In this document: piece after piece, positions 10,753 through 52,286 of the stretch | Layout: each line of letters begins with the position of its first letter | Numbering within the stretch: position 1 is the first letter of the stretch | Virus record (IMG/VR): IMGVR_UViG_3300022540_000741 | Coordinates: 1 to 55,716 of that record | Strand: one strand, 5' to 3' | DNA: 55,716 nucleotides | From: a virus | Notes under the pieces: generated by a model | The model's database searches: none | What the model was told of the DNA's origin: nothing | What the model saw: the letters and a program-made list of their open reading frames with translations, nothing else | Made by a program: the position numbers and the translations under genes

Positions 10753-11535
10753 ATGAGTATAAGAAATCTAGCAGCTTTAGATCGTAATATAAGTCAATCA
10801 CTCGGCAGAATAATTCAAGAAGCTTTTTCAGATGGAATAACATTCACAGGAGTAGCTACTGGAGAAAGCAATTATACTGGAACTGGAATTTATGGAAAAG
10901 CTGGATTTAGCGTAGGAACTAAATCTAGTCCTGTCCTAGTTACTTTAGCTGGGGGTAATGCTGGTCTTCAAGCTCACGTTCAGCAAGATGCACTGATGAG
11001 TGCAGCTACTCAAATTCTCTCTGGACTCTATATTACTGCGTCTCATGGAAACGTCATTTCCACTAATGGAGCAGTTGAAGGACTTTCAATCTTTGCTCGG
11101 AATAGTCTAGGAGGAACTTGTATAGATCTGAAAGGCGGATTGTTCATGCTCTATTGTAGTGGTACAAGCAAAACTAAGTACAAAAAAGGACTCTTGATCG
11201 ATATTCTTGATCATGCTACTTCTCATCCGGCTGGAGGAGGAACTCAAGGAATCATTCTGCAATTGAATCCTACTAGTATTGTCAATAATCAAGTGGATGC
11301 TATTCTTATCAATCAGAACAGCGCTCAACAAATAGCTGGTGGAATCGTATTCAACGGAAAGATGGGGAATGTTTCTGGAAGTCATGCAGTAATAAGTTTT
11401 GTCGGAGCGAATGATGGAGCTCACACTTCAGGCAACAAAGGAAATATGCTCAAGTTCAGATCTGGAGGAACAACTTATGTCATGACTCCTGCGCAGTTCA
11501 AGACAGTAGTTGGAGCTAACTGTACTGCGATCTAA
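10753..11535 (+). CDS. Beta-rich head decoration or spike-like protein
   Basis: A 260-residue Gly/Ser/Thr-rich protein with repeating short strands (ASHGNVISTNGAVEGLSIFA). The pattern resembles that in the tail-fibre-like gene at 23338 (QASNGALVATGTIRALELKA), which suggests the two share a fold such as a trimeric beta-helix. In the head module it is best read as a decoration protein on the capsid surface. There is no catalytic motif. Confidence 0.55.
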   Translation: MSIRNLAALDRNISQSLGRIIQEAFSDGITFTGVATGESNYTGTGIYGKAGFSVGTKSSPVLVTLAGGNAGLQAHVQQDALMSAATQILSGLYITASHGNVISTNGAVEGLSIFARNSLGGTCIDLKGGLFMLYCSGTSKTKYKKGLLIDILDHATSHPAGGGTQGIILQLNPTSIVNNQVDAILINQNSAQQIAGGIVFNGKMGNVSGSHAVISFVGANDGAHTSGNKGNMLKFRSGGTTYVMTPAQFKTVVGANCTAI

Positions 11536-11559
11536 TTGATTTTTGAGTTAATAAGTTAA

Positions 11560-11603
11560 TCCTATATTGCAATGTCGTACAAGAATCTATCGCTCTAATA
11601 GGA
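11560..11603 (+). promoter_or_regulatory. Sequestered ribosome site and antisense target
   Basis: TCCTAT (11560-11565) can pair with ATAGGA (11598-11603), which covers the ribosome site GGAG at 11601-11604 of the next gene. The loop contains ATTGCAATGTCGTACAAGA (11566-11584). This 19-base stretch is perfectly complementary to 34425-34443 in the leader of the replication operon. A trans-acting RNA could open or lock this hairpin; that is inference. Confidence 0.55.
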
Positions 11604-11610
11604 GAGACTT

Positions 11611-11940
11611 TTGAGAAAATTAAATTTAGAAAATTATCAGTTTGATGTAGTCGATGAGAAAGGAGAAATAACAAAAGGAACATACGAATTTAGAGGTTCT
11701 CTTTGTGCGATCCTTTTCAATGCTAATCTTCAATTAAATGCAGTTGATCTCTTGGATAGAGAAGACATTGCTCGAAAGATCAGAGATTGCAATGGAAAAA
11801 ATCTTCTTTTAGAAGAAGAAGAATACTCAAAGATCAAAGCATCCTTAGACGCTTTTCAAGGATTTGGACAGAATGATGTTCCATTCGTAAAGCGGATTGT
11901 AGATTGTTCTGAGATTAAAGTAGAAGAAAAAAAATCTTAG
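11611..11940 (+). CDS. Conserved small phage protein, TTG start
   Basis: A 109-residue protein with the pattern LNLENYQFDV...GTYEFRGSLCAILFN...LLDREDIARKI...LEEEEYSKIKASLDAFQGFGQNDVPFVKRI. This layout is familiar from small proteins between capsid and connector genes in other phages, where the role is unknown. The TTG start has tAGGAGAG six bases upstream. Its translation may be controlled by the hairpin and antisense target just upstream. Confidence 0.6.
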   Translation: MRKLNLENYQFDVVDEKGEITKGTYEFRGSLCAILFNANLQLNAVDLLDREDIARKIRDCNGKNLLLEEEEYSKIKASLDAFQGFGQNDVPFVKRIVDCSEIKVEEKKS

Positions 11941-12051
11941 TAGCTAAAAAATTAAATCATTATTTTAATTTTATAGAAGAGAGCAGGAGCAGCATCCTCT
12001 TTCTCTCTCATGTCTAAGAGAGCTGCTCTGTTCTCTATTTAGGAGCTTTCT
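11941..12051 (+). promoter_or_regulatory. Leader with a 15-bp stem before the connector gene
   Basis: Bases 11978-11993 pair with 12022-12036 to give about 15 base pairs broken by one bulged G (AGAGAGCA-G-GAGCAGC with GCTGCTCTGTTCTCT, one G-T). The loop is pyrimidine-rich. The ribosome site tAGGAG lies just 3' of the stem. I see no convincing promoter here. Confidence 0.5.
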
Positions 12052-13295: not shown

Positions 13296-13723
13296 TGGCA
13301 AAGATCACAATAAAATTAATAGGAGAGAAAGAATTCCAAGTAGATCTAAAGCGCTTGAAGGGAAAAATCAGAAAAGATGTGGGAGTTTTAACTAAAGGAA
13401 CTGGAGTAAAGATCGCTGATCAGTCAAAGAAAAATCTCACAGCGAATAGAAGCGTAGTGACAGGAACTTTGAGGAGATCCATGACATCAGAATTCTATGA
13501 AACTCGCTGCTACAGCGAAGCAGGAACAAATGTTAGTTATGCTCCTCCTGTGGAGTTCGGTCACAGACAAACGCCAGGACGCTATGTCCATGCTATAAGA
13601 AGGAGATTAAAAGCTGCTAGAGTAGCTGCTAAACCATTTCTCACTCCAGCATATAAAAGATACGAACCTGTATATTATCGAGCTTTAATGATGCTGCTCA
13701 AAGGAGCTTTTCCTAGAGGATGA
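13295..13723 (+). CDS. HK97 gp10-like tail completion protein
   Basis: A 142-residue protein with the gp10 family layout: GxKIADQSKKNLTANRSVVTGTLRRSM near residues 41-66, then AGTNVSYAPPVEFGH near 78-92 and KPFLTPAYKRYE near the end. These proteins join the tail terminator to the neck. It overlaps the next gene by ATGA. Confidence 0.85.
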   Translation: MAKITIKLIGEKEFQVDLKRLKGKIRKDVGVLTKGTGVKIADQSKKNLTANRSVVTGTLRRSMTSEFYETRCYSEAGTNVSYAPPVEFGHRQTPGRYVHAIRRRLKAARVAAKPFLTPAYKRYEPVYYRALMMLLKGAFPRG

Positions 13724-14517
13724 TCATGGCAAGAATATTCATAGCTACGATAGATAATTCTGGAGCTAGATTCTGTACAGAAGTTTTTAAAAGATTCACA
13801 GATTATCCAGCTTTCCATGAACAGAGTCCTTGCTGTGAAGGACAAGTGTGCAGAGAGATAAACAATATAGCTGGAATAACAAAAATGACTAGAGAGATCC
13901 TGAAAGAAAAGCTAGCACAAATTCTAAGAGATAGTGAAGATGGAAACTACATGGAAGCTAATCAGATGTTTATAAAAAGCTATGTCCATCTAGTGACTTA
14001 TAAGAAAGAGCTCCAGCCAATTTATGTGATTTATTTGCATAGAAATCCTGTGGACGTTCTTCTGAGTTATGATCAGAATTTAGATCTAAGTTGGTTTTTA
14101 CAACCTCACTGGAGTAAAAATCTTTCTCGATGTACTAAAGGAATGAGCTTCAATGAGATCGTGCTATGGCAATGGACAGAAGTGAGAGAGCGCTTTCTGC
14201 TCTATAAACCTAAATTCGCAAAAACTTTTGATCTGGAATTTGAAGATCTAAACAATCCTGAAACATGGAAGCTGCTCTTCCAGCATTTTGACATAAGATA
14301 TGATTTCATTCCTTCAGATTTTGCAGAGTCTTTGAAGGAAGACAAAAAGATAAGAAAATCTCTTCATGTTTCTGAAGGAAAATCTTTAGGATCGATGAGA
14401 AGAGACTGGAATAAGAAAGGAAGAGATAGAACTATAGATGGATCTGAAAGCTTTCTTAGACAGATGGAGAATCGAGCGAGAAAATCAAGAGAAGAAAAAT
14501 TGAAGGAGATTCAATGA
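13720..14517 (+). CDS. Sulfotransferase-like protein in the neck module
   Basis: A 265-residue protein. The N-terminal strand-loop ARIFIATIDNSGARFCTEVF occupies the place of the PAPS-binding P-loop of sulfotransferases. IYVIYLHRNPVDVLLSYDQN (residues 101-120, His107-Arg108-Asn109-Pro110, Ser116) matches their second PAPS contact. If active it would transfer sulfate from PAPS to a virion or cell-surface substrate. The P-loop lacks the usual GSGT form, so activity is uncertain. It is embedded between tail completion and tail terminator genes with four-base overlaps on both sides. The start is ATG 13720 or 13726. Confidence 0.55.
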   Translation: MIMARIFIATIDNSGARFCTEVFKRFTDYPAFHEQSPCCEGQVCREINNIAGITKMTREILKEKLAQILRDSEDGNYMEANQMFIKSYVHLVTYKKELQPIYVIYLHRNPVDVLLSYDQNLDLSWFLQPHWSKNLSRCTKGMSFNEIVLWQWTEVRERFLLYKPKFAKTFDLEFEDLNNPETWKLLFQHFDIRYDFIPSDFAESLKEDKKIRKSLHVSEGKSLGSMRRDWNKKGRDRTIDGSESFLRQMENRARKSREEKLKEIQ

Positions 14518-25436: not shown

Positions 25437-25465
25437 TTGACAGGCTATAGGAAAATCCTTATATT
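25437..25465 (+). promoter_or_regulatory. Sigma-70-like promoter of accessory operon 1
   Basis: TTGACA (25437-25442), a 17-base spacer and TATATT (25460-25465); a second TATACT follows at 25465-25470. It is the best promoter in the window. The 70 bases before it (25367-25436) hold nothing else that I can see. Confidence 0.75.
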
Positions 25466-25579
25466 ATACTATAGACATGAGAGAGAGACTGAGATTAGCT
25501 TTACATCCTTCCTTTAGGAAATTCCTTCCTAGATCCTTATCCTCTCTCTTTATTCTCGGTCTCTCTCCAGGAGGATTCT
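25466..25579 (+). promoter_or_regulatory. Leader with a 14-bp closing stem
   Basis: GAGAGAGACTGAGA (25481-25494) pairs over its full length with TCTCGGTCTCTCTC (25554-25567, one G-T), and TAGGAA/TTCCTA (25515-25520, 25526-25531) forms an inner hairpin. The ribosome site AGGAGGA starts three bases after the long stem. An ATG at 25477, about five bases from the expected transcript start, opens a 41-codon frame that overlaps the first gene; it has no ribosome site and may be chance. Confidence 0.6.
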
Positions 25580-25786
25580 ATGGGTTTATCAAAATTTTCT
25601 GATGGCATAATTCAGCATGATGGAAAAAAGCTCCAGAAATGCTACATCAAAACTACTGATGAATTTTATGTGAACTGTCCTTACTGTGGAAATACTATTG
25701 ATTGTGGAACTGATGATCACGTAGAAAAATGTACTTCCTGTAATAAAGAATTCTATGCTGAATTTAGCTTTCCAAATATCATCTAA
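25580..25786 (+). CDS. Small zinc-ribbon protein
   Basis: A 68-residue protein with CPYCGNTIDC (residues 33-42) and CTSC (51-54), a rubredoxin-like zinc ribbon of the type phages use in small regulators or adaptors. It is the first gene of the promoter-led operon that ends at the 29538 terminator. It has a strong ribosome site AGGAGGATTCT. Confidence 0.65.
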   Translation: MGLSKFSDGIIQHDGKKLQKCYIKTTDEFYVNCPYCGNTIDCGTDDHVEKCTSCNKEFYAEFSFPNII

Positions 25787-29352: not shown

Positions 29353-29362
29353 AGGAGGACAA

Positions 29363-29518
29363 ATGAAGAAGAAAAAACGCTACACAAAACCTGAGATCAG
29401 AAGAGTTCCACTCAGACCGCAAGAATCAGTGCTCGGATTCTGTAAGAATTCAAATACTCAGGGTCCACGCATCGGAACTTGCACACGTCCAGGATCTTGT
29501 CTCATAGAAGGATCTTAA
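29363..29518 (+). CDS. Short cysteine peptide resembling a RiPP precursor
   Basis: A 51-residue peptide. The leader-like first half has KKRYTKPEIRRVPLRPQESV, similar to the YxxP-E-I and PE(x)AVL leader patterns of small ribosomal peptides that are later modified. The second half is short, Gly/Ser-rich and has Cys27, Cys40 and Cys46. No modification enzyme is next to it, though radical SAM genes lie at 41069 and 51342. It is the last gene before the terminator and has AAAGGAGG. Confidence 0.5.
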   Translation: MKKKKRYTKPEIRRVPLRPQESVLGFCKNSNTQGPRIGTCTRPGSCLIEGS

Positions 29519-29537
29519 AGCAGAAAGCAGCGCTCTG

Positions 29538-29574
29538 AAAAAGGAGAGGACTGATCATCCTCTCCTTTTTTTTT
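29538..29574 (+). terminator. Rho-independent terminator
   Basis: AAAAAGGAGAGGA (29538-29550) pairs perfectly with TCCTCTCCTTTTT (29558-29570) around a seven-base loop and is followed by a T run to 29574. It is the only textbook terminator I found in the window and closes the 25.4-29.5 kb operon. Confidence 0.93.
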
Positions 29575-29587
29575 ACCAAAAAAACAC

Positions 29588-29615
29588 TTGACAAGCAGTT
29601 AGGGTTTGCTAATAT
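29588..29615 (+). promoter_or_regulatory. Sigma-70-like promoter of accessory operon 2
   Basis: TTGACA (29588-29593), a 16-base spacer and TAATAT (29610-29615), placed right after the terminator. Confidence 0.72.
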
Positions 29616-29636
29616 CCGATGCACTAGGATAGTGTG

Positions 29637-29717
29637 ATGATCAGATCTCATCGATTCTATAATTATTCTCAATCAATTCCATTCATGAAATTTGAAGGAG
29701 TAATCTCTATTCCATAA
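29637..29717 (+). CDS. Possible 26-residue leader peptide
   Basis: ATG 29637 lies about 15 bases after the expected transcript start, seven bases after AGGA, and opens a 26-residue frame (MIRSHRFYNYSQSIPFMKFE start) that ends just before the next ribosome site. It may be a leader peptide; it could also be chance. Confidence 0.3.
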   Translation: MIRSHRFYNYSQSIPFMKFEGVISIP

Positions 29718-29730
29718 AAAAGGAGGTGAT

Positions 29731-29868
29731 GTTAGGAAGCGATACTGTTTCTTTTACTATTTCAGACCGCATCCTGAGCATGATGTAAAACTGCTCAAAA
29801 AAAAAGGAGCTGCAAGCTGGCGCTACACAGCTCCTCATAAGGAGGATTCTATGTGGAGGAATGGATAG
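29731..29868 (+). CDS. Possible small gene without a normal start codon
   Basis: A 45-codon frame with phage-like codon use reads RKRYCFFYYFRPHPEHDVKL and then an AASWRY segment, ending at TAG 29866-29868. AGGAGG lies at 29721-29726 but the codon at the right distance is GTT (29731). The ATG at 29729 is out of frame. An in-frame ATG at 29851, preceded by AAGGAGGATTCT, would give only the five-codon peptide MWRNG. Either the gene has an unusual start, or only the minigene is made. Confidence 0.3.
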   Translation, partial: VRKRYCFFYYFRPHPEHDVKLLKKKGAASWRYTAPHKEDSMWRNG

Positions 29869-29926
29869 TGTCTGAAAAATCCTCACACTATAAAATCCTT
29901 CCGAGTATTGCATGAAGGAGGCTTTT

Positions 29927-30839: not shown

Positions 30840-32060
30840 ATGATAGCTAAAATTTTAAGAGAACAAAAGGATCTCAAAGTAGTAAGAGATAGTAAAATAG
30901 TTAAATGGATATCTGAGAACTATCGCTTTGAGTCTAAGCATGGAAGAGGAGGACAGATCAAAGAGAAAGGAGATCAGAAGAGAAGAAATCTCTACATGAG
31001 CGATGTTCATCGATGTCCTAGAGAGATCTATTTTATGTTCCATTCTCCAGAAGTAGCTAGAGACTACACAATAAAAGGACTCATGCTTTTTGCTGATGGA
31101 AACTATCATCATCAGGATATCCAAAGAAGACTGGAAGAAAGGAAGAGAGGACGGAATCCAGAAGGATTCCTGGAAGATCCTGAGACTGGAGCTACAGGAT
31201 ACTATGATGAGCTCATTCCAGTAGGAGAAGAGAACGGATGGCAAATCTGCGATCTCCTGGAAATCAAGTCTAAGAACTCTCCTGCGATGACTAAAGTAGC
31301 TCAAGGAGACTATGATCAAGGACAGTATTATCTGCTTGCTGCTGGATGGAGCAGGAGACTGAAGACGCTAGGAATCAAGATCCGCAATCTCAGAGTCTTA
31401 TATAAGGACAGATCTTTGATGCTGGATGAACCGCTAGTAGGATGGACAGCAGCTCCAGATCCTGAAAGACAGAAAGCAATCAGAGAGCACTTTATGTGGA
31501 TGAAGGAAACTATTATCGAGAAAGGAAAGATCGTGGATCAGCCTTACGCTAGAGACTATTACATGTGTCAATTCTGTAGATATCATCACTGGTGCTGGAA
31601 AGGATTTCCTGATCCTAAATCTGTGGAAGCAGCTCCAGAGATCCTAACAGATGAACGTCCAGAACAAGAAATCCTGCTCTCTTTAAGTACTCGCTTCCTG
31701 GATCTGAAAGCAGAATCAGCAGCATTAAAAAAGGAAGAGGAAGGAATCAAGAAAGTCTTCATGAATTACTTTGCTCATACTAAAACAAAAACTTTTCCTA
31801 TTTCAGAGGATAAAAATGTAGGACTTGTAAAAAGCGTGAAAGAAGTCCTGGATAATGAATATCTGCTTAAGAGATTAGGAGCTACAAAATATTCTAAGAT
31901 CTCAGAGCCTGTGACGAAGCTTATTGCTAAAGGAATAGAAGAAGGATATATCAGCGCTAAAGCTATCCAGCGAGCGAAGTCTCCTAAAGTGGAATTCTCC
32001 ATCCGCATACTTAAGAAAAAAGAAGAAGTCAAAAAGGAGGAAACAGAAAGTGAACGCTAA
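30840..32060 (+). CDS. Cas4/RecB-like PD-(D/E)XK nuclease with Fe-S site
   Basis: A 406-residue protein. Motif I is in the RCPREIYFMF segment (Cys59). The active site is GYYDELI (120-126, Asp123), then DLLEIKSK (138-145) with Glu141 and Lys143. A C-terminal YMCQFCRYHHWC (241-252) supplies Cys243, Cys246 and Cys252. Cys59 plus these three is the four-cysteine iron-sulfur pattern of Cas4 and AddB-type nucleases, which digest single-stranded or end DNA. Phage versions act in recombination. The extra 100 residues at the end are helical. It has ribosome site AAGGAGGAGCT. Confidence 0.82.
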   Translation: MIAKILREQKDLKVVRDSKIVKWISENYRFESKHGRGGQIKEKGDQKRRNLYMSDVHRCPREIYFMFHSPEVARDYTIKGLMLFADGNYHHQDIQRRLEERKRGRNPEGFLEDPETGATGYYDELIPVGEENGWQICDLLEIKSKNSPAMTKVAQGDYDQGQYYLLAAGWSRRLKTLGIKIRNLRVLYKDRSLMLDEPLVGWTAAPDPERQKAIREHFMWMKETIIEKGKIVDQPYARDYYMCQFCRYHHWCWKGFPDPKSVEAAPEILTDERPEQEILLSLSTRFLDLKAESAALKKEEEGIKKVFMNYFAHTKTKTFPISEDKNVGLVKSVKEVLDNEYLLKRLGATKYSKISEPVTKLIAKGIEEGYISAKAIQRAKSPKVEFSIRILKKKEEVKKEETESER

Positions 32061-32574: not shown

Positions 32575-32994
32575 TTGTCTAAGAAAGTCTCTAGAAATAA
32601 TTGGAAAAAAATAGATCCTCATCTCGCAGAAAAATTAGGAGATGCGCTGATTTATGCGTTTAGATTTTTAGAAGGAAGAGAAGCTATTATTTTCTTTTTA
32701 CGAAGTGGACTTCTAGGAGAGATTTTTACTCTAAAAGAAATTGGAGCTATTTTCAAAATAACTGGAAGCAGAGTGAGTGGAATTGAAGCAAAAGCTAGAA
32801 CAAAAATTCGACATCCAGCAATACAAACTCCAGCATTGAAAGGAGCAAAGTTGAATCTTAGAGATATAAAGGAATTTAGAAAATGGTTAATATATTCATG
32901 GTTAGGAACTGGAGGAATTTCTAGACCCATGATAAGAGGAATTTTAAAAGAAGCAATGAAAATAAAATTCAAACGGAGGATTAAATGCCGATAA
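32575..32994 (+). CDS. Sigma-70 region 4-like regulator, TTG start
   Basis: A 139-residue protein. Residues 49-81 (EIFTLKEIGAIFKITGSRVSGIEAKARTKIRHP) match sigma-70 region 4.2, the helix-turn-helix that reads the -35 box, including the IEAKAxxKIRHP end. Regions 2 and 3 are missing, so it is not a full sigma factor. It could bind -35-like DNA or act as an anti-sigma or co-activator that switches phage promoters. The rest is basic. Confidence 0.72.
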   Translation: MSKKVSRNNWKKIDPHLAEKLGDALIYAFRFLEGREAIIFFLRSGLLGEIFTLKEIGAIFKITGSRVSGIEAKARTKIRHPAIQTPALKGAKLNLRDIKEFRKWLIYSWLGTGGISRPMIRGILKEAMKIKFKRRIKCR

Positions 32995-34364
32995 AAGGAA
33001 TCACAGACATTATTCGCTATCAGCGAGCAGGAAAGATCCGTCTCGGAACTAGGATCAAGACAGAAAAAAGATGTCGATGTGTTGAAGATGGAAGAGCAAA
33101 TCCAGAATGTAGGATGTGTCTAGGAACTGGATGGATTCATCGTCCGCATGAGGAGGATTATTTTGTTCTGAAGGACAGTCCTGAGCTCATCGAGTTTTAT
33201 CCAGGAGAGCCTAAGCTGCTGCACGTCAAGCTTCCTCTAAGCTATAAGCTGGAGCAGATCTTCTCTCAGGATCTCAAGCGCTATGGAATGGATAAGCTGC
33301 TGTGTAAAGGAGACGGAACTAAAGCTCATTGTGTGGACTTTGATAAAGGAGAGCTAGTGGAAATCGATTGTCCTTGCAACTATCTGGAAGATGGAAAATG
33401 CGGAGCTGCAGCTATCATGAATGTGCGGATCTCAGAGCTTGAAAACAGCATGAGAGTCTATCAGATTTCGACACAGAGCTTCAATTCAATAGTGAACTTG
33501 AACAATGCTATACGTGAAATAATCTGGAGATGCTACTCTAACAAGATCAACATCTCCTCAGTCTTCCTCCAGCTCACAAGAGAGAAAACAAAGACGCAGC
33601 GTTTGACTGGAAAGCAAGTCGCTAAAGGAATCCATTATCCTATGTTCCTGGATCTGGACAAGAGTAAATATAAGTCCTGGGATGATGTCATAAAGACTGC
33701 AGAGCCACTTCCTTTCACAGCTCCTGCGATCCAGCTTCCAGCTCCTGATCTATCAGAAGAAGAAGTGATCCGTCCTGATAATGATGTAATTACAGTAGAA
33801 AAAGAAGAGGAAAAGATTCCAGAAAAAGAAGAAGTGAAGGAAGAGAAAATAGAAGAGAAAGCTAGAGATCCTAAGCTAGTTCCGATAGAAGCTGAAGATG
33901 ATATAGAGGACTCTCCACAGAAAGTAGAGTTTGACAAGCTAGCAGCGCAGCTCAGAGCTACTCTCAATACTCTAGAATTTATGAACATAAAACTTGATCC
34001 AGAAGAAGAGAAAAAGCTCAAAGGAAAGATGACTGTTCATAGCATGAGAGAACTCAATAAGTATTTTGCTGAAAAGCTCGAAGCAGAAACAAAAAAGTCT
34101 GAGAAGAAAGCTGCTAAGAAAAAATCTCCTACAGAGATCTCCGCAAAGAAAGCTCCAGATCAAGATCCAAAAGAGACAGAATTGGATAGGATCAGAACTG
34201 AATTAAATAATCTTGTACATCGTTTATTCGCTGGATATGGATATCAGACTACAGAGGAAGATCAGCAGATGATCATTAATATTAAAACTGAAGAGGATGG
34301 AAAGAAAGCGCTGGAACATTTTAAAGCAAAACTTGAGAGAGCTAAGATAGATAGAGGATATTAA
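32985..34364 (+). CDS. Recombination-directionality-factor-like protein
   Basis: A 459-residue protein. It has a cysteine cluster at residues 30-45 (CRC...CRMC) and AHCVDFDKGELVEIDCPCNYLEDGKC at 115-139, followed by VYQISTQSFNSIVNLNNAIREI, the layout of the RDF-like family found in actinophage and other phage genomes. Known RDFs reverse serine integrases, but no integrase is present here, so another role is likely. Residues 260-400 are an acidic/lysine linker and the end is helical. It overlaps the sigma-like gene by 10 bases. Confidence 0.6.
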   Translation: MPIKGITDIIRYQRAGKIRLGTRIKTEKRCRCVEDGRANPECRMCLGTGWIHRPHEEDYFVLKDSPELIEFYPGEPKLLHVKLPLSYKLEQIFSQDLKRYGMDKLLCKGDGTKAHCVDFDKGELVEIDCPCNYLEDGKCGAAAIMNVRISELENSMRVYQISTQSFNSIVNLNNAIREIIWRCYSNKINISSVFLQLTREKTKTQRLTGKQVAKGIHYPMFLDLDKSKYKSWDDVIKTAEPLPFTAPAIQLPAPDLSEEEVIRPDNDVITVEKEEEKIPEKEEVKEEKIEEKARDPKLVPIEAEDDIEDSPQKVEFDKLAAQLRATLNTLEFMNIKLDPEEEKKLKGKMTVHSMRELNKYFAEKLEAETKKSEKKAAKKKSPTEISAKKAPDQDPKETELDRIRTELNNLVHRLFAGYGYQTTEEDQQMIINIKTEEDGKKALEHFKAKLERAKIDRGY

Positions 34365-34371
34365 AAAATCC

Positions 34372-34400
34372 TTGACATCAAATTTACCCTAATTTAGAGT
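34372..34400 (+). promoter_or_regulatory. Sigma-70-like promoter of the replication operon
   Basis: TTGACA (34372-34377), a 17-base spacer and TAGAGT (34395-34400), starting eight bases after the previous stop codon. Confidence 0.65.
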
Positions 34401-34585
34401 CTGAGCACTGTGATAGTGAATTCATCTTGTACGACATTGCAATTGAGCGCTCCTTCTTCCTCTGTCTGTAAATTCACTATCTTTAGTTTCGCAAAAGGAG
34501 GAGCGCTTTATTTCTTTTTTAGGAGGATTTTATGCTGCAGAGGAATTCAGATCATGTAGGATCTTGCTACTAAAGGATTCTCCTA
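34401..34585 (+). promoter_or_regulatory. Structured leader with antisense segment
   Basis: GATAGTGAATT (34412-34422) pairs perfectly with AATTCACTATC (34471-34481), enclosing a 48-base loop. That loop carries TCTTGTACGACATTGCAAT (34425-34443), perfectly complementary to 11566-11584, and AGCGCTCC (34446-34453), which can pair with GGAGCGCT (34500-34507). The second pairing crosses the first, giving a pseudoknot or a switch. A tiny gene with AGGAGG follows at 34532. Confidence 0.6.
34532..34573 (+). CDS. Thirteen-residue minigene in the leader
   Basis: AGGAGGATTTT directly precedes ATG 34532, giving MLQRNSDHVGSCY and stop. The strong ribosome site and the next gene 13 bases on suggest translation coupling or a leader peptide. 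Confidence 0.4.
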   Translation: MLQRNSDHVGSCY

Positions 34586-35320
34586 ATGGCAAGAGGACGC
34601 ATGATGGATAGACGTATCAGTAAATCTAAAAAATTAGCAGCACTAAAAACAGACAAAGCTAGACTCCTATATCACATGATCTATCCACACGTGGATCGTG
34701 AAGGACGCTACTCAGGAGATCCTCTGGATATAAAAGAGGATTGTGTTCCTAGATTAAAATATTCAGTTAAGAAAATTGCAGAATGTTTAGTGGATATGGA
34801 TGATGTTGAGCTCCTCACTTTATATGCAGTGAAGGATATTCCTTATCTACAAATGGAGCGCTTTCTTGATTTTCAAACTATAAGAAAAGATAGAGAAGCA
34901 GAATCTGTTATTCCTCCTTATGGAAAGAGAACTCCTGCTCTACTCCAGCAGTACTCCAGGAGTACTCCTCTCTTAAGTTTAAAGTTAAGTTTAAGTTTAA
35001 GGAAGGAAGGAAGGAAGGAAGATAAGCAGATGTTTTTTTCCTTTGAGGATGCTAAGTGGATCAACATCAAAGAAGAGCATATCAAAGGATGGAAGCAAGC
35101 TTATCCTGCGTGTGACATTATCATAGAGCTCTATAAGATGCGTGAATGGTTACTCGCTAATCCAGCTCAAGCTAAATCCAACTACAGGAGATTCATTGTC
35201 AACTGGCTTACTTCGCAGCAGAATAAAGGAGGAACAAAAGGAATTGATAAGCAGAGATTCTCAGGAATTAAGGAATGGTATGAAGGAGAACTAGAGAAAG
35301 GAACTCATGAAGCAAAATGA
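34586..35320 (+). CDS. Replication initiator-like protein (lambda O / DnaT-like)
   Basis: A 244-residue protein. The N-terminal half (KLAALKTDKARLLYHMIYPHVDREGRYSGDP) matches helix-turn-helix initiators of phage replication. The C-terminal WKQAYPACDIIIELYKMREWLLANPAQAKSNYRRFIVNWL (about 170-215) is a DnaT-like helical domain. It would bind the origin and recruit the loader encoded next. A basic, low-complexity linker near residues 115-150 coincides with iteron-like repeats in the DNA, as in lambda O. It overlaps the next gene by 14 bases. Confidence 0.75.
   Translation: MARGRMMDRRISKSKKLAALKTDKARLLYHMIYPHVDREGRYSGDPLDIKEDCVPRLKYSVKKIAECLVDMDDVELLTLYAVKDIPYLQMERFLDFQTIRKDREAESVIPPYGKRTPALLQQYSRSTPLLSLKLSLSLRKEGRKEDKQMFFSFEDAKWINIKEEHIKGWKQAYPACDIIIELYKMREWLLANPAQAKSNYRRFIVNWLTSQQNKGGTKGIDKQRFSGIKEWYEGELEKGTHEAK
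34941..35020 (+). other. Candidate replication origin inside the initiator gene
   Basis: Three TACTCC repeats at an 11-base spacing (34941, 34952, 34963) overlap a palindrome AGTACTCC-A-GGAGTACT (34950-34966). They are followed by an AT-rich TTAAGTTTAAAGTTAAG tract (about 34973-35000) and five GGAA repeats. Iterons plus an unwinding tract within the initiator gene is the lambda arrangement. Confidence 0.5.
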
Positions 35321-41764: not shown

Positions 41765-42550
41765 ATGCAAAATTCTAAAGTTATTGTAATTTCAAATGCA
41801 CTCTATTTTATCCAGAAAGCAAGAGTAGCAGCACAAGTGAGGAGGACTCATCTCTCTAAGAGGAAAAAGAAATGCAAGCTTACGGATGAGATCCTGGAGC
41901 GGACTGCTCTTTTTGAGTCATGGTTAGATACGGAATTAAAAGATTTCGTGAAAGCTCATCCTGCGTATGAATGGTTTTCAAAAGTCAAAGGAGTAGGAGA
42001 TCTGAACATCGGAAAAGTCATATCACTGATCGACATTAAAGAAGCATCGATGATCTCTAAATTGTGGCGCTATGCTGGATATGCTCCTGCGAATGGAAAA
42101 ACTGAAAGACGGACTACTGGAAAGAAGCTGCACTACAATCAAATGTTGAAATCAATGTGCTGGAGACTAGCTAAAAGCTTGATCAGAGCAAAAGCTGAAT
42201 ACTATGATTATTATCGAGAACAGAAAAAGAGACTCACAAAAAGATTAGAAGGAGACGGATTTACTATAGTTCCATCTGCGCAGCTTCCTAAAGAAAAAAA
42301 TACTAAAACAGGAAAGATGAATAGAGTAGAGAAGGACGGATATTTTGCTCTAGGACACGTTGACACAATGGCAATGAGGAAGATGATCAAGCTCTTCCTT
42401 TCTCATTTATGGTTGAAATGGAGAGAAGCTGAAGGACTGGAAGTGACTAAACCATACGCACATGCTATAAAAGGACACACTGATTTTAGAGCTCCTGAAG
42501 AATTCATGAGCTGTGATATTCAAGAAACTCACGCTTCGAGTGCGAGCTAA
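41765..42550 (+). CDS. Tas-like protein (IS110/Transposase_20-related, no nuclease)
   Basis: A 261-residue protein. Residues 73-140 (KVKGVGDLNIGKVISLI, then SKLWRYAGYAPANGK, then GKKLHYNQMLKSMCWRLAKSLI) match the C-terminal Transposase_20 domain of IS110 transposases, with a helix-hairpin-helix at 75-86. Residues 1-70 are helical, and 141-261 are a basic extension ending FRAPEEF. The DEDD/RuvC catalytic domain of IS110 and any HNH domain are missing, so it is not a working transposase. Its stop codon lies inside the first unit of the 36-base array. This pairing is the layout of TIGR-Tas systems, where such proteins bind dual-spacer guide RNAs. I infer a TasA-type, nuclease-less effector. AAGGAGGATTTT precedes the ATG. 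Confidence 0.75.
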   Translation: MQNSKVIVISNALYFIQKARVAAQVRRTHLSKRKKKCKLTDEILERTALFESWLDTELKDFVKAHPAYEWFSKVKGVGDLNIGKVISLIDIKEASMISKLWRYAGYAPANGKTERRTTGKKLHYNQMLKSMCWRLAKSLIRAKAEYYDYYREQKKRLTKRLEGDGFTIVPSAQLPKEKNTKTGKMNRVEKDGYFALGHVDTMAMRKMIKLFLSHLWLKWREAEGLEVTKPYAHAIKGHTDFRAPEEFMSCDIQETHASSAS

Positions 42551-43305
42551 AGGGAAAAAGGAATCCAGCAACGCTAAGCGAGCTATCATGTTAGAGAAAT
42601 CCATTAGAACAGAGCGAGCTATCGTTATCGAGGAATCCATTTTTCCTGAGCGAGCTAAAAAAATGGAGAAATCCAAAGTCAATGAGCGAGCTAAGACTAG
42701 CGAGAAATCCAGACTGAGTGAGCGAGCTATATTGGAAAAGTACTCCACCAAACAAGAGCGAGCTACAAGGAGCGAGAAATCCACCATGACAAAGCGAGCT
42801 ATCTTCTTTGAGAAATCCATCACATAGGAGCGAGCTATTTTCAAGAAGTAATCCATGAATAAGGAGCGAGCTACACAAAGAATGAAATCCACACGTTATG
42901 AGCGAGCCATGAAACACAAGAAATCCATGTTGTATGAGCGAGCTAGAATCAGCAAGGAATCCAATGGATTGAAGCGAGCTATGATTAAGAAGGAATCCGA
43001 GTAGTAGAAGCGAGCTATGTTCAGGAAGTAATCCAACATGTCTGAGCGAGCTAAAATAAAGGAGTAATCCTACAACATGGAGCGAGCTAAACACTGTGAG
43101 GATTCCACTAAACAAGAGCGAGCTATGAGTTTTGAGAAATCCAATTTTGACAAGCGAGCTATTGACATGAAGAAATCCATGTAAGAAAAGCGAGCTAGAC
43201 TATGAGAGAAATCCACGTACAATGAGCGAGCTTTAACATATTAGAAATCCATGTATATCAAGCGAGCTAACATAATTAAGGAATCCAGAAATTATGAGCG
43301 AGCTT
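42542..43305 (+). repeat. TIGR-like guide array, 36-base period
   Basis: GCGAGCTA occurs at 42542 and then every 36 bases exactly to 43298 (22 copies, 21 full periods, no indel). Halfway through each unit, 18 bases on, stands GAAATCCA (variants GGAATCCA, GTAATCCA). The 10 bases after each 8-mer vary from unit to unit, except that the last two are almost always GA or AA. Thus each unit is two conserved 10-mers (RAGCGAGCTA, RAGAAATCCA) and two variable 8-mers. I found no repeated spacer by eye. Stops appear in the + frame from about unit 7 on, so it is not a protein gene. It is best read as a tandem array of about 36-nt RNAs with two short guides each. Confidence 0.85.
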
Positions 43306-45932: not shown

Positions 45933-46349
45933 ATGCAACAGATTCCATCTAGTAGTACTATAATCTGGATTATCGTAAGCATTTTAGTGGGTGTCGCTGG
46001 ACTTATAGCTAAAGAGATCATCCGTTCACTTCGCTATAGAAGTCATCTCAAAGAAAGTAATGATGTTCAGAAGGAGATAAAAGAAGCTCTGGATACAATC
46101 AATAACAGCAATGATCAGAAGGAGATTAAAGCAGCTCTGCAAAAAATCCAGGATGATTCAGGAACTATAAGCAAAGATCTTGTCAAAACAGGAAGAGACG
46201 TGCTGAAGATCGCAGGAACGCTCAAAGGATTTGATGAGCGATGTACAGCTCATCTTCAAACTCAAGATAATATTAATCAGAAAGTGAATGGTAGCTTAAA
46301 GACGCTGGATGGAAGAGTTTTTGATATTGCTAGGAAAAAGAAATCATGA
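45933..46349 (+). CDS. Membrane-anchored coiled-coil protein
   Basis: A 138-residue protein starting at ATG 45933 (AAAGGAGAGGAAC). The N-terminal helix (about 9-27, IIWIIVSILVGVAGLIAKEI) is a membrane anchor and the rest is a charged coiled coil (KEIKEALDTINNSNDQKEIK). It could be a second spanin or holin regulator after the endolysin. Confidence 0.5.
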   Translation: MQQIPSSSTIIWIIVSILVGVAGLIAKEIIRSLRYRSHLKESNDVQKEIKEALDTINNSNDQKEIKAALQKIQDDSGTISKDLVKTGRDVLKIAGTLKGFDERCTAHLQTQDNINQKVNGSLKTLDGRVFDIARKKKS

Positions 46350-49304: not shown

Positions 49305-50647
49305 TGAAACAAGAAGAAAGAGTAATAAGCAGCGCTGATCCTACTCCAAGACAGATTGAAGCTTCAGTCTCTCCAGCTAGATACGTGCTCTATGGAGGAG
49401 CTATGCGTGGAGCAAAGACAGCGTGGTTGTGTAACTGCGCAGTCGCTCTTTCAACAGGAATTCCAGGAAATAGAGGATACATGGCACGTCATGAGCTTCA
49501 TGAATTTAAGCTCAGTACGCTCCTGGAGCTCCAGAAATGGTTAGATCCTGAGCTGCTGCTGTTTCATAACAAAAGTGATCATCTATTCAAGTTTAAAAAT
49601 GGATCTGAGCTCTTCTATGGAGGATTAGGAGACGATGAGCGAGCTATAGACAGACTTAAATCAATGGAACTGGGATGGTTCGCTATAGATCAAGTAGAAG
49701 AGACTACTGAAAAGCATTTTCTCCTTTTGTGTACTCGCTTGAGTCTCAATATTCCAGGAATAGTGTTTAAAGGACTCTGTACAGCTAATCCTACATCCAA
49801 CTGGGTGAAGCATCGATGGATAGATCCTTCTCCTCCACTCGCAGATCACGCTTTTGTTCCTGCTTTTATTCGTGACAATCCTCACAATCCTCCAGACTAT
49901 GAAGAGAAGATGCGTGAAGTACTTCCTGCGGATCTCGCTCAAGCGTGGATCGAAGGAGACTGGAATGTAGTCTCAGAGTGCAATGCGCTGTTCCAGTATT
50001 CAAAAGTGACGCTGGCAATGAATAGGAATTTAAGAGCAGAGTCTCCAGTGACGGACATAGGAGTGGATGTCGCTAGAGAAGGAGATGATGAGACTGTAAT
50101 CGCTCTAAAGCAGAAAGCAGCGTCCAAGTTGGAAGTTGATGCTGGACTAGGAGCTAAATTCACTCTCATAAAGAAGATAATCGGACAGGATACGATGCAG
50201 ACTGCAGATGATGTCATTGAACTGATGCAGATCCATCATTCTGCAAATGTGAAAATCGATTCTATAGGATATGGAGCTGGAGTCTTTGATAGGATCAAGC
50301 GGATGTTAAAAGAGCTGCGCACTCGCTGGAAATACACTGGATCGCTTTTAGAGTATAAAGGATCGAATAAAGCTCAAGATCCTGCACGCTATCGCAACCG
50401 GAGAGCGGAGGATATGTTTATGTTTAGCAAGAAGCTTTCTTACGTGGATATTCCACAGGATCAGAAATTGAGAAATGAGATGTCGATCCGCTATCGACTA
50501 TTGAGCGCAGATGGACTTTTCAGAATAGAGAGCAAAGAGGAGTTTAAGAAGAGAATGAAGATGAGCACAGATCGTCTGGACGCTATTGTTATAGCGGACG
50601 CAGCTTGCAAAGAGAAAAGAAGAGGAAGAGTGTTTAGATCATGGTGA
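49304..50647 (+). CDS. Terminase large subunit
   Basis: A 447-residue DNA-packaging motor. Walker A GGAMRGAKT (31-39), Walker B with catalytic Glu in WFAIDQVEE (125-133), a CTANPTSNWVKHRW coupling segment (159-172) and a nuclease domain with GVDVAREGDDE (253-263) and DRLDAIVIADA near the end. It cuts concatemeric DNA and pumps it through the portal. It overlaps the PAPS-reductase-like gene by seven bases. Confidence 0.94.
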   Translation: MKQEERVISSADPTPRQIEASVSPARYVLYGGAMRGAKTAWLCNCAVALSTGIPGNRGYMARHELHEFKLSTLLELQKWLDPELLLFHNKSDHLFKFKNGSELFYGGLGDDERAIDRLKSMELGWFAIDQVEETTEKHFLLLCTRLSLNIPGIVFKGLCTANPTSNWVKHRWIDPSPPLADHAFVPAFIRDNPHNPPDYEEKMREVLPADLAQAWIEGDWNVVSECNALFQYSKVTLAMNRNLRAESPVTDIGVDVAREGDDETVIALKQKAASKLEVDAGLGAKFTLIKKIIGQDTMQTADDVIELMQIHHSANVKIDSIGYGAGVFDRIKRMLKELRTRWKYTGSLLEYKGSNKAQDPARYRNRRAEDMFMFSKKLSYVDIPQDQKLRNEMSIRYRLLSADGLFRIESKEEFKKRMKMSTDRLDAIVIADAACKEKRRGRVFRSW

Positions 50648-51345
50648 GAATCCTTTCATACGGAGCAGGAGTCAACAGCACAGCTCTCATTGCATTGACG
50701 CTGCTTAAAAGGATTCCTCCATTTGATGAGATCGTATTCTCAGACACAGGAACTGAGTATCCTCATACTTATCAATATATGGACTATTTAGAGTCGCTAG
50801 GAATCAAAATCACGTATCTAACTGGAGGAGTGGAGCATCAGACGCTGCTAGAGCGCTGTCAAAAGCATAAAGTCATTCCTTCGATGATGAATCGCTGGTG
50901 TACTGAGAAATGGAAGATCCGTCCTATATCGTATTATACGAAGTCTCTAGATCCTGGAGCTGAAACAATAATAGGAATAGACGCTGGAGAATCTCATCGT
51001 GTCTCCAGGAAGTACAAAAGGAACAAATATCCGCTAGTGGATATGGGGATAGATCGCAGTGGATGTCGTAAAGTGATAAAGGAAGCTGGACTCGGACTTC
51101 CAATGAAGAGCGGATGCTATATCTGTCCTTTTCAGTCCAAACGCAACTGGATAGAACTGAAAAAGTCGTATCCTGAGCTCTGGACTATAGCTGTGGAGCT
51201 GGAGAAGGAGTGTATCATCGAGAAAGAGAAATATACTTATAGGAGAGGAACTACAATCGTGGACTTCGTAGGAGATCTAGATCTACAGCAGGATCTAGAC
51301 TTTGACTTCGAGCTGGAGCAATCCTGCTGGTGCATGTTCCAATGA
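50641..51345 (+). CDS. PAPS-reductase-family ATP pyrophosphatase
   Basis: A 234-residue protein. SYGAGVNST (residues 6-14) is the PP-loop, DEIVFSDTGTEYPHTYQYM the following strand-helix, CTEKWKIRP the adenylate contact region, and SGCYICPFQ a cysteine pair. Phage members of this group are linked to sulfur or nucleotide modification, but the substrate is not known. The next gene is a radical SAM enzyme, overlapping by ATGA. Confidence 0.82.
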   Translation: MVRILSYGAGVNSTALIALTLLKRIPPFDEIVFSDTGTEYPHTYQYMDYLESLGIKITYLTGGVEHQTLLERCQKHKVIPSMMNRWCTEKWKIRPISYYTKSLDPGAETIIGIDAGESHRVSRKYKRNKYPLVDMGIDRSGCRKVIKEAGLGLPMKSGCYICPFQSKRNWIELKKSYPELWTIAVELEKECIIEKEKYTYRRGTTIVDFVGDLDLQQDLDFDFELEQSCWCMFQ

Positions 51346-52286
51346 AGAAAATAGGACTTATAGACATAGATTCTAAGATGGCAAACCTAGCATTGATGAA
51401 ACTGAGCTCATACTACAAGTCCAAAGGAGACAAAGTGGAGCTCACAGCTCCTCTCTTCGCTAAGAACTATGATCGTGTTTACGGATCTAAGATCTTCTCC
51501 TATTCTCGTCTTCCTACTCTTCCTTCATCAGCAGTCATCGGAGGATCAGGAGTGGATCTCGGATTGAAGCTGGATCTCTGCATTGAGAGGATAATGCCCG
51601 ACTACACACTGTATCGAGATCTGGATTACAGTCTAGGATTCACTAGTAGAGGATGTAGCAGACGCTGTAGATTTTGCGTTGTTCCTATTAAAGAAGGAAG
51701 ACTGATCAAAACAGCATCGATCTATGAATTCTGGAATCCCTGGCACAAAAAGCTTGTTCTCCTGGATAACAACATTCTAGGACTGAAATATAATTTTGAA
51801 CAAGTAGCAGAGGATCTACTTAAAGAGAGAATAAAAGTGGACTTCACTCAAGGACTCGATATCAGATTATTGAATGATGATAATACTAAGATCCTGAGAC
51901 AGCTCTCCTTCTTCCAGGACGTGAAGTTCTCCTTCGATAGACTGAGCTATGAGACTGGATTCAGGAGAGGAGCAGAGCTCCTGCAGAAATATCAATTCTC
52001 TAAGACGCATGTGACGATATACGTTCTAGCAGGATATGATGAGGACTTTGAATCCACGCTCCAGAGAGTAGAGATCATCCTGGAGTATGGATTCGCTCCT
52101 TATATCATGATCTATAGATCTAGGACTGGAGAGAGGATAGGCGATGAGCGCTTCCATCGATTGATGCTCTGGAGCAATAAGAAGCAGAGACTCCGCTCTT
52201 CATCATTCGCAGACTTCAATCGTCAATTCAGAAGAAAGGAGAATTATGTCTCTCCATCACAGATGCAGATTAAGGAGGATCTATGA
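51342..52286 (+). CDS. Radical SAM enzyme with B12-binding-like start
   Basis: A 314-residue protein (start ATG 51342, overlapping TGA). IDIDSKMANLALMKLSSYYKSKGD is a Rossmann-like start as in cobalamin-binding domains. GFTSRGCSRRCRFC has Cys105, Cys109 and Cys112 (CX3CX2C) for the 4Fe-4S cluster, and LLDNNILG and FTQGLDIRLLNDD follow. Phage versions are common with unknown substrate. Together with the preceding gene it may modify a nucleotide or RNA. Confidence 0.8.
   Translation: MKKIGLIDIDSKMANLALMKLSSYYKSKGDKVELTAPLFAKNYDRVYGSKIFSYSRLPTLPSSAVIGGSGVDLGLKLDLCIERIMPDYTLYRDLDYSLGFTSRGCSRRCRFCVVPIKEGRLIKTASIYEFWNPWHKKLVLLDNNILGLKYNFEQVAEDLLKERIKVDFTQGLDIRLLNDDNTKILRQLSFFQDVKFSFDRLSYETGFRRGAELLQKYQFSKTHVTIYVLAGYDEDFESTLQRVEIILEYGFAPYIMIYRSRTGERIGDERFHRLMLWSNKKQRLRSSSFADFNRQFRRKENYVSPSQMQIKEDL

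Follow-up and report, generated by a model that had tools for sequence, protein, structure and literature searches.

A 19-nt sequence in the leader of the replication operon (TCTTGTACGACATTGCAAT, positions 34425-34443) has its exact reverse complement in the gap before a 109-aa gene at 11611, downstream of the capsid gene (ATTGCAATGTCGTACAAGA, positions 11566-11584). We consider genuine RNA pairing in trans, taking both directions of action together, to be the best single class of explanation for this match and a modestly probable one. Within that class, we tentatively favor a reading in which the leader (~34407-34520) is a promoter-proximal terminator switch whose loop pairs in trans with RNA transcribed before gene 11611. 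We infer the existence of both RNAs, their meeting, and its outcome from what was directly found, namely the perfect complement, a promoter-like site, two competing stems (A and B), and the order in which these fold in an energy model. The window examined comprised the whole 55,716-base stretch of the virus record, which carries portal, capsid, tail tape measure, and terminase genes.

An earlier, sequence-only reading had claimed that the two segments are perfectly complementary and non-coding, and this was confirmed, with both segments lying in gaps, outside all listed open reading frames of at least 60 aa. The match ends exactly at 19 nt, the flanking bases being unpaired. Both regions are transcribed rightward, and the match is inverted, the orientation that RNA pairing between two co-directional regions needs. 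No other inverted match in the window is as long (the runner-up is 16 nt), and inverted matches between gaps rank at 19, 15, and 13 nt. Among gap-to-gap controls, direct matches reached at most 14 nt (ribosome sites and A-runs), and reversed and complemented matches at most 11 nt each. No third copy of the 19-mer within 3 mismatches was detected in the whole window. Screening of viral contigs for the 19-mer returned no match, and screening of cellular genomes returned two, about the number expected by chance, one within a coding region and the other in an unrelated gap.

The gaps total 5.4 kb, for which the analytic expectation is 1.3e-4 chance matches of 19 nt from gap to gap and 0.0096 across the window, and the longest match in 400 simulated gap sets was 16 nt. 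By these values a chance match is unlikely, with the qualification that the tail of the background is heavier in real phage genomes. Specifically, inverted matches of 18-23 nt were identified in the related phage G003 and one of 22 nt in G009, with genes and gaps taken together, and the longest of these are palindromic repeats or low-complexity A/T runs. The simulated rate is therefore a slight underestimate of how often chance would give such a match. Judged from sequence, the pair is unlikely to reflect chance and may reflect RNA-based coupling of early and late genes.

The leader occupies the gap between the end of a gene at 34364 and the start of a replication-initiator-like gene (34586-35320, + strand; PHROG replication initiation protein, E 7e-9). 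A promoter-like site, TTGACA-17-TAGAGT (34372-34400, + strand), was predicted by a consensus scan (10/12) and is one of four TTGACA-type sites within gaps; its predicted start is at ~34407. Stem A follows, with 11 perfect pairs (34412-34422 with 34471-34481), and holds the 19-mer in its loop. A perfect inverted repeat of this length was recovered in 1 of 300 shuffles, so that the earlier description of the 19-mer as lying in the loop of an 11-bp stem just after a promoter was borne out. Stem B is terminator-like, with 14 pairs, some of them G-U (34445-34458 with 34495-34508), followed by a U-rich tract that extends the feature to 34520. Its 5' arm begins 2 nt after the 19-mer, still within the loop of stem A, and its own loop of 36 nt is long for an intrinsic terminator. 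Two stems of at least 11 pairs, as in A and B, were likewise found in 1 of 300 shuffles. Downstream, a strong ribosome site (AGGAGG, 34521-34526) precedes a 13-codon open reading frame read from the sequence (MLQRNSDHVGSCY, 34532-34573, + strand).

In the energy model, the growing RNA folds as stem A up to ~34500, and once position 34508 has been made stem B is favored over stem A by 7 kcal/mol (-25.0 vs -18.0). Holding the 19-mer open, which mimics a bound RNA, costs stem A ~5 and stem B ~3 kcal/mol. This order of folding, together with the costs of opening the loop, suggests that the leader is laid out as a terminator switch whose loop could sense another RNA. The model favors stem B even when no RNA is bound, and the total fold energy of the leader is ordinary (z -0.9). 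The two stems could also coexist as a pseudoknot, in which case stem A would not delay stem B. The elements of an RNA attenuator (a promoter, an early terminator, a competing upstream stem, and a replication gene) are all present in the leader as predictions. A search of Rfam returned no match, and no similarity to the leader was detected in phages or plasmids.

Attenuators of the pT181 type stand in front of a replication gene. The gene downstream of the leader described here encodes a replication initiator, a class that is under RNA attenuation in both P4 and pT181, and this argues for reading the leader as an attenuator. During transcription, stem A would fold first and delay stem B. A late mRNA carrying 11566-11584 would bind the loop, weaken stem A, and favor the terminator stem B, and an abundant late transcript would thereby turn down the replication operon. 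The short terminated leader RNA may simultaneously act back on the late mRNA. If this is true, the phage genome would need nothing but RNA to monitor its late transcription and switch off its replication genes.

Immunity in the satellite phage P4 involves a CI RNA that pairs with seqA and seqC and causes early termination of the replication operon (PMC4825925). The arrangement described here is like that of P4 in combining a replication-operon leader, an early terminator, and complementary RNA segments within one phage. However, the pairing RNA of P4 is processed from the same leader transcript, whereas the putative partner here is the mRNA of the capsid region 23 kb away. The leader also resembles pT181-type plasmid attenuators in having a first hairpin with a pairing loop and then a terminator (PMC3753616), whereas the antisense RNA of pT181 derives from the opposite strand of the leader and the partner here would be a separate locus on the same strand. 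We interpret these likenesses as ones of mechanism rather than of membership in either system. The reverse direction of action would resemble IsrK of the prophage Gifsy-1, which also involves a terminated phage leader, a read-through form, and action in trans on translation, the counterparts of all three being predictions in the present case (PMC4825925). IsrK acts on its own read-through mRNA, whereas the putative RNA here has its complement in a distant operon.

Most regulatory RNAs known from phages either are antisense to a gene that they overlap or are directed at host genes. Of the phage small RNAs, sar, OOP, and aQ are of the antisense kind, PreS has a host gene as its target, and VpdS acts on host RNAs and affects the levels of phage and host mRNAs (reviewed in PMC12197685). 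Action of a phage RNA by base pairing is common to these five and, as predicted, to the pair described here. None of the five joins a replication leader to the mRNA of a capsid region (PMC12197685).

A second pair of this kind was identified between another leader and the gap that follows gene 11611. The leader side (TAGACATGAGAGAGA, 25472-25486, + strand) lies where the RNA from a promoter at 25437-25465 is predicted to begin, and is a perfect 15-nt complement of TCTCTCTCATGTCTA (12002-12016, + strand). The target side lies within the apical portion of a stable hairpin (z -3.6) before gene 12052, which encodes a head-tail adaptor and is the next gene after 11611. When 60-nt promoter-proximal segments were compared to the gaps, the longest complements were 19 nt for the segment from 34407, 15 nt for that from 25472, and 10 nt for each of the other two promoters; the longest among control segments was 13 nt (n = 136). 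The 15-nt pair alone is only suggestive, since it is partly low-complexity (GAGAGAGA) and ~2% of simulated gap sets contained a match of 15-16 nt. L002, a relative whose contig does not cover the matching leader region, retains 14 of the 15 target bases, and no longer run in that gap is conserved. In G003, the leader before the homolog of the gene at 25580 and the gap before the homolog of gene 12052 share, in a comparison by eye, a complement of only 7 nt, which is at chance level.

That this second leader-to-gap pair adjoins the first, with its target side kept in L002, is a further reason for reading the replication leader as an attenuator. The leaders at 34407 and 25472 might even pair with both gaps around gene 11611 and tie the operons together by RNA, a broader scheme that we regard as unlikely. 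If true, late transcription, replication, and a third operon would sense one another without a protein regulator. The second pair also suggests a screen of other phages, from genomes only, in which promoter-proximal RNA is compared to intergenic gaps.

The alternative that survives best is that the 19-nt match is a product of chance or an evolutionary relic without present function, which we consider possible but somewhat unlikely. The low gap-to-gap expectation, simulations that never exceeded 16 nt, the location of both ends in gaps and of one end in the loop of a non-random leader, and the presence of the second pair all argue against it. Conversely, many windows and kinds of pattern were screened initially, related phages contain the inverted matches of 18-23 nt noted above (the longest being repeats or low-complexity sequence), and the pair is kept in no relative that was found. 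As for covarying pairs in related phages, to which the sequence-only reading had pointed as a check, the relatives found lack the target element or the leader, and none holds both regions closely enough for covariation to show.

The closest relatives of the capsid protein are L001 (90% identity), L002 (88%), and L003-L005 (63%), with others lower, and the replication half of the genome has no close relative in the collection. Searches with the initiator gene, the gene preceding it, the 109-aa gene, and the genes at 30840 and 20160 (tail region) recovered no close relatives, and a profile of the gene preceding the initiator recovered the distant G003 contig again and nothing else. In G003, the initiator gene directly follows the upstream genes, with no leader. 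L002 carries a different 240-aa gene in place of the region corresponding to 10762-11978 of the window (a 260-aa gene, the 19-mer gap, and the 109-aa gene), and L004 (record G003) also carries this kind of gene. L026 retains the 109-aa gene (56% identity, with the same TTG start), and the gap before it contains another hairpin and an open ribosome site and lacks the 19-mer. Because relatives lack the target element or the leader, the pair is, as far as seen, confined to this lineage. Positions 10753-11978 appear as a swappable cassette after the capsid gene, with an unrelated gene there in L002 and L004. Similarity of the 260-aa protein to several relatives extends over its first ~30 residues and not beyond.

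A second alternative reverses the roles, with the leader, once terminated, acting as a ~110-nt small RNA that uses its exposed 19-nt seed to bind the loop before gene 11611 and change the translation of that gene. The predicted layout is appropriate, with a promoter, then a loop that presents the seed toward the 5' end, and then a terminator-like stem and U-rich tail at the 3' end, and prophage IsrK is an earlier case of action in trans by a terminated leader (PMC4825925). The target lies in the gap 11536-11610, where a weak hairpin (11560-11565 with 11598-11603, + strand) is predicted to cover the ribosome site of gene 11611 (11611-11940, + strand, TTG start). The claim that a hairpin hides this ribosome site therefore holds as a predicted fold, but its 6-bp stem is no better than chance, since 160 of 300 shuffles gave a stem as long. 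When the 19-mer is held open, another stem forms instead and keeps most of the ribosome site paired. The 19-mer stops 16 nt before the ribosome site, with no overlap. Duplex energies fail to single out gene 11611, as several other start regions rank higher, and L026 encodes the 109-aa gene without the element. Direct translational control is thus possible and is not favored, given the chance-level hairpin, the ribosome site that stays paired, and the 16-nt distance, and we regard this small-RNA scheme as unlikely. The only match of the 109-aa protein in an annotated phage is in the archaeal ANMV-1 virus (KP703175.1, 31444-31746; ~30% identity, E 1e-9), and its predicted structure is of low confidence (pLDDT 45.5).

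The earlier proposal of a trans-acting RNA that couples early transcription to late translation therefore stands in part. A link in trans is the best reading, and a similar second pair was found. Control of late translation by an early RNA fared less well, given the ordinary target hairpin, the lack of overlap with the ribosome site, the undiscriminating energies, and the absence of the element in relatives. The leader, as a predicted terminator switch before the initiator, resembles a regulated partner no less than a regulator, and by analogy with the known systems we slightly prefer the replication leader over late translation as the regulated end.

A shared DNA site, with a phage regulator or another protein binding at each copy and RNA complementarity being incidental, is improbable. 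In its favor, the 19-mer contains an imperfect dyad (TTGYA-N6-TRCAA), and a promoter-like site lies a short distance upstream of the copy at 34425. However, in place of the several variant dyad copies near promoters that would characterize a duplicated operator there are only two copies, identical through their asymmetric center, and no variant occurs within 3 mismatches. The dyad shows no enrichment (7 found vs 5.3 expected), and no + strand promoter is listed near 11566.

Several other features of the window were noted. The early region includes a gene with a sigma-70 region 4 domain (32575-32994, E 2e-9), a possible phage transcription regulator, and the early genes are preceded at 29353-29911 by a strong hairpin with a T-run and then a good promoter (29588), which is followed by a ~300-nt leader with internal hairpins. 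A sulfotransferase-like gene is present in the head region (13720-14517; E 2e-4, just under the Pfam cut-off), and PAPS-reductase-like and radical SAM genes are present near the terminase gene (50641-52286). The gap at 42541-43305 contains ~20 degenerate 36-nt repeats with alternating AGCGAGCTA and AGAAATCCA boxes, which look like an iteron or partition-site array, and a ParB-N-like gene was identified at 46346 (E 2e-5, just under the Pfam cut-off).
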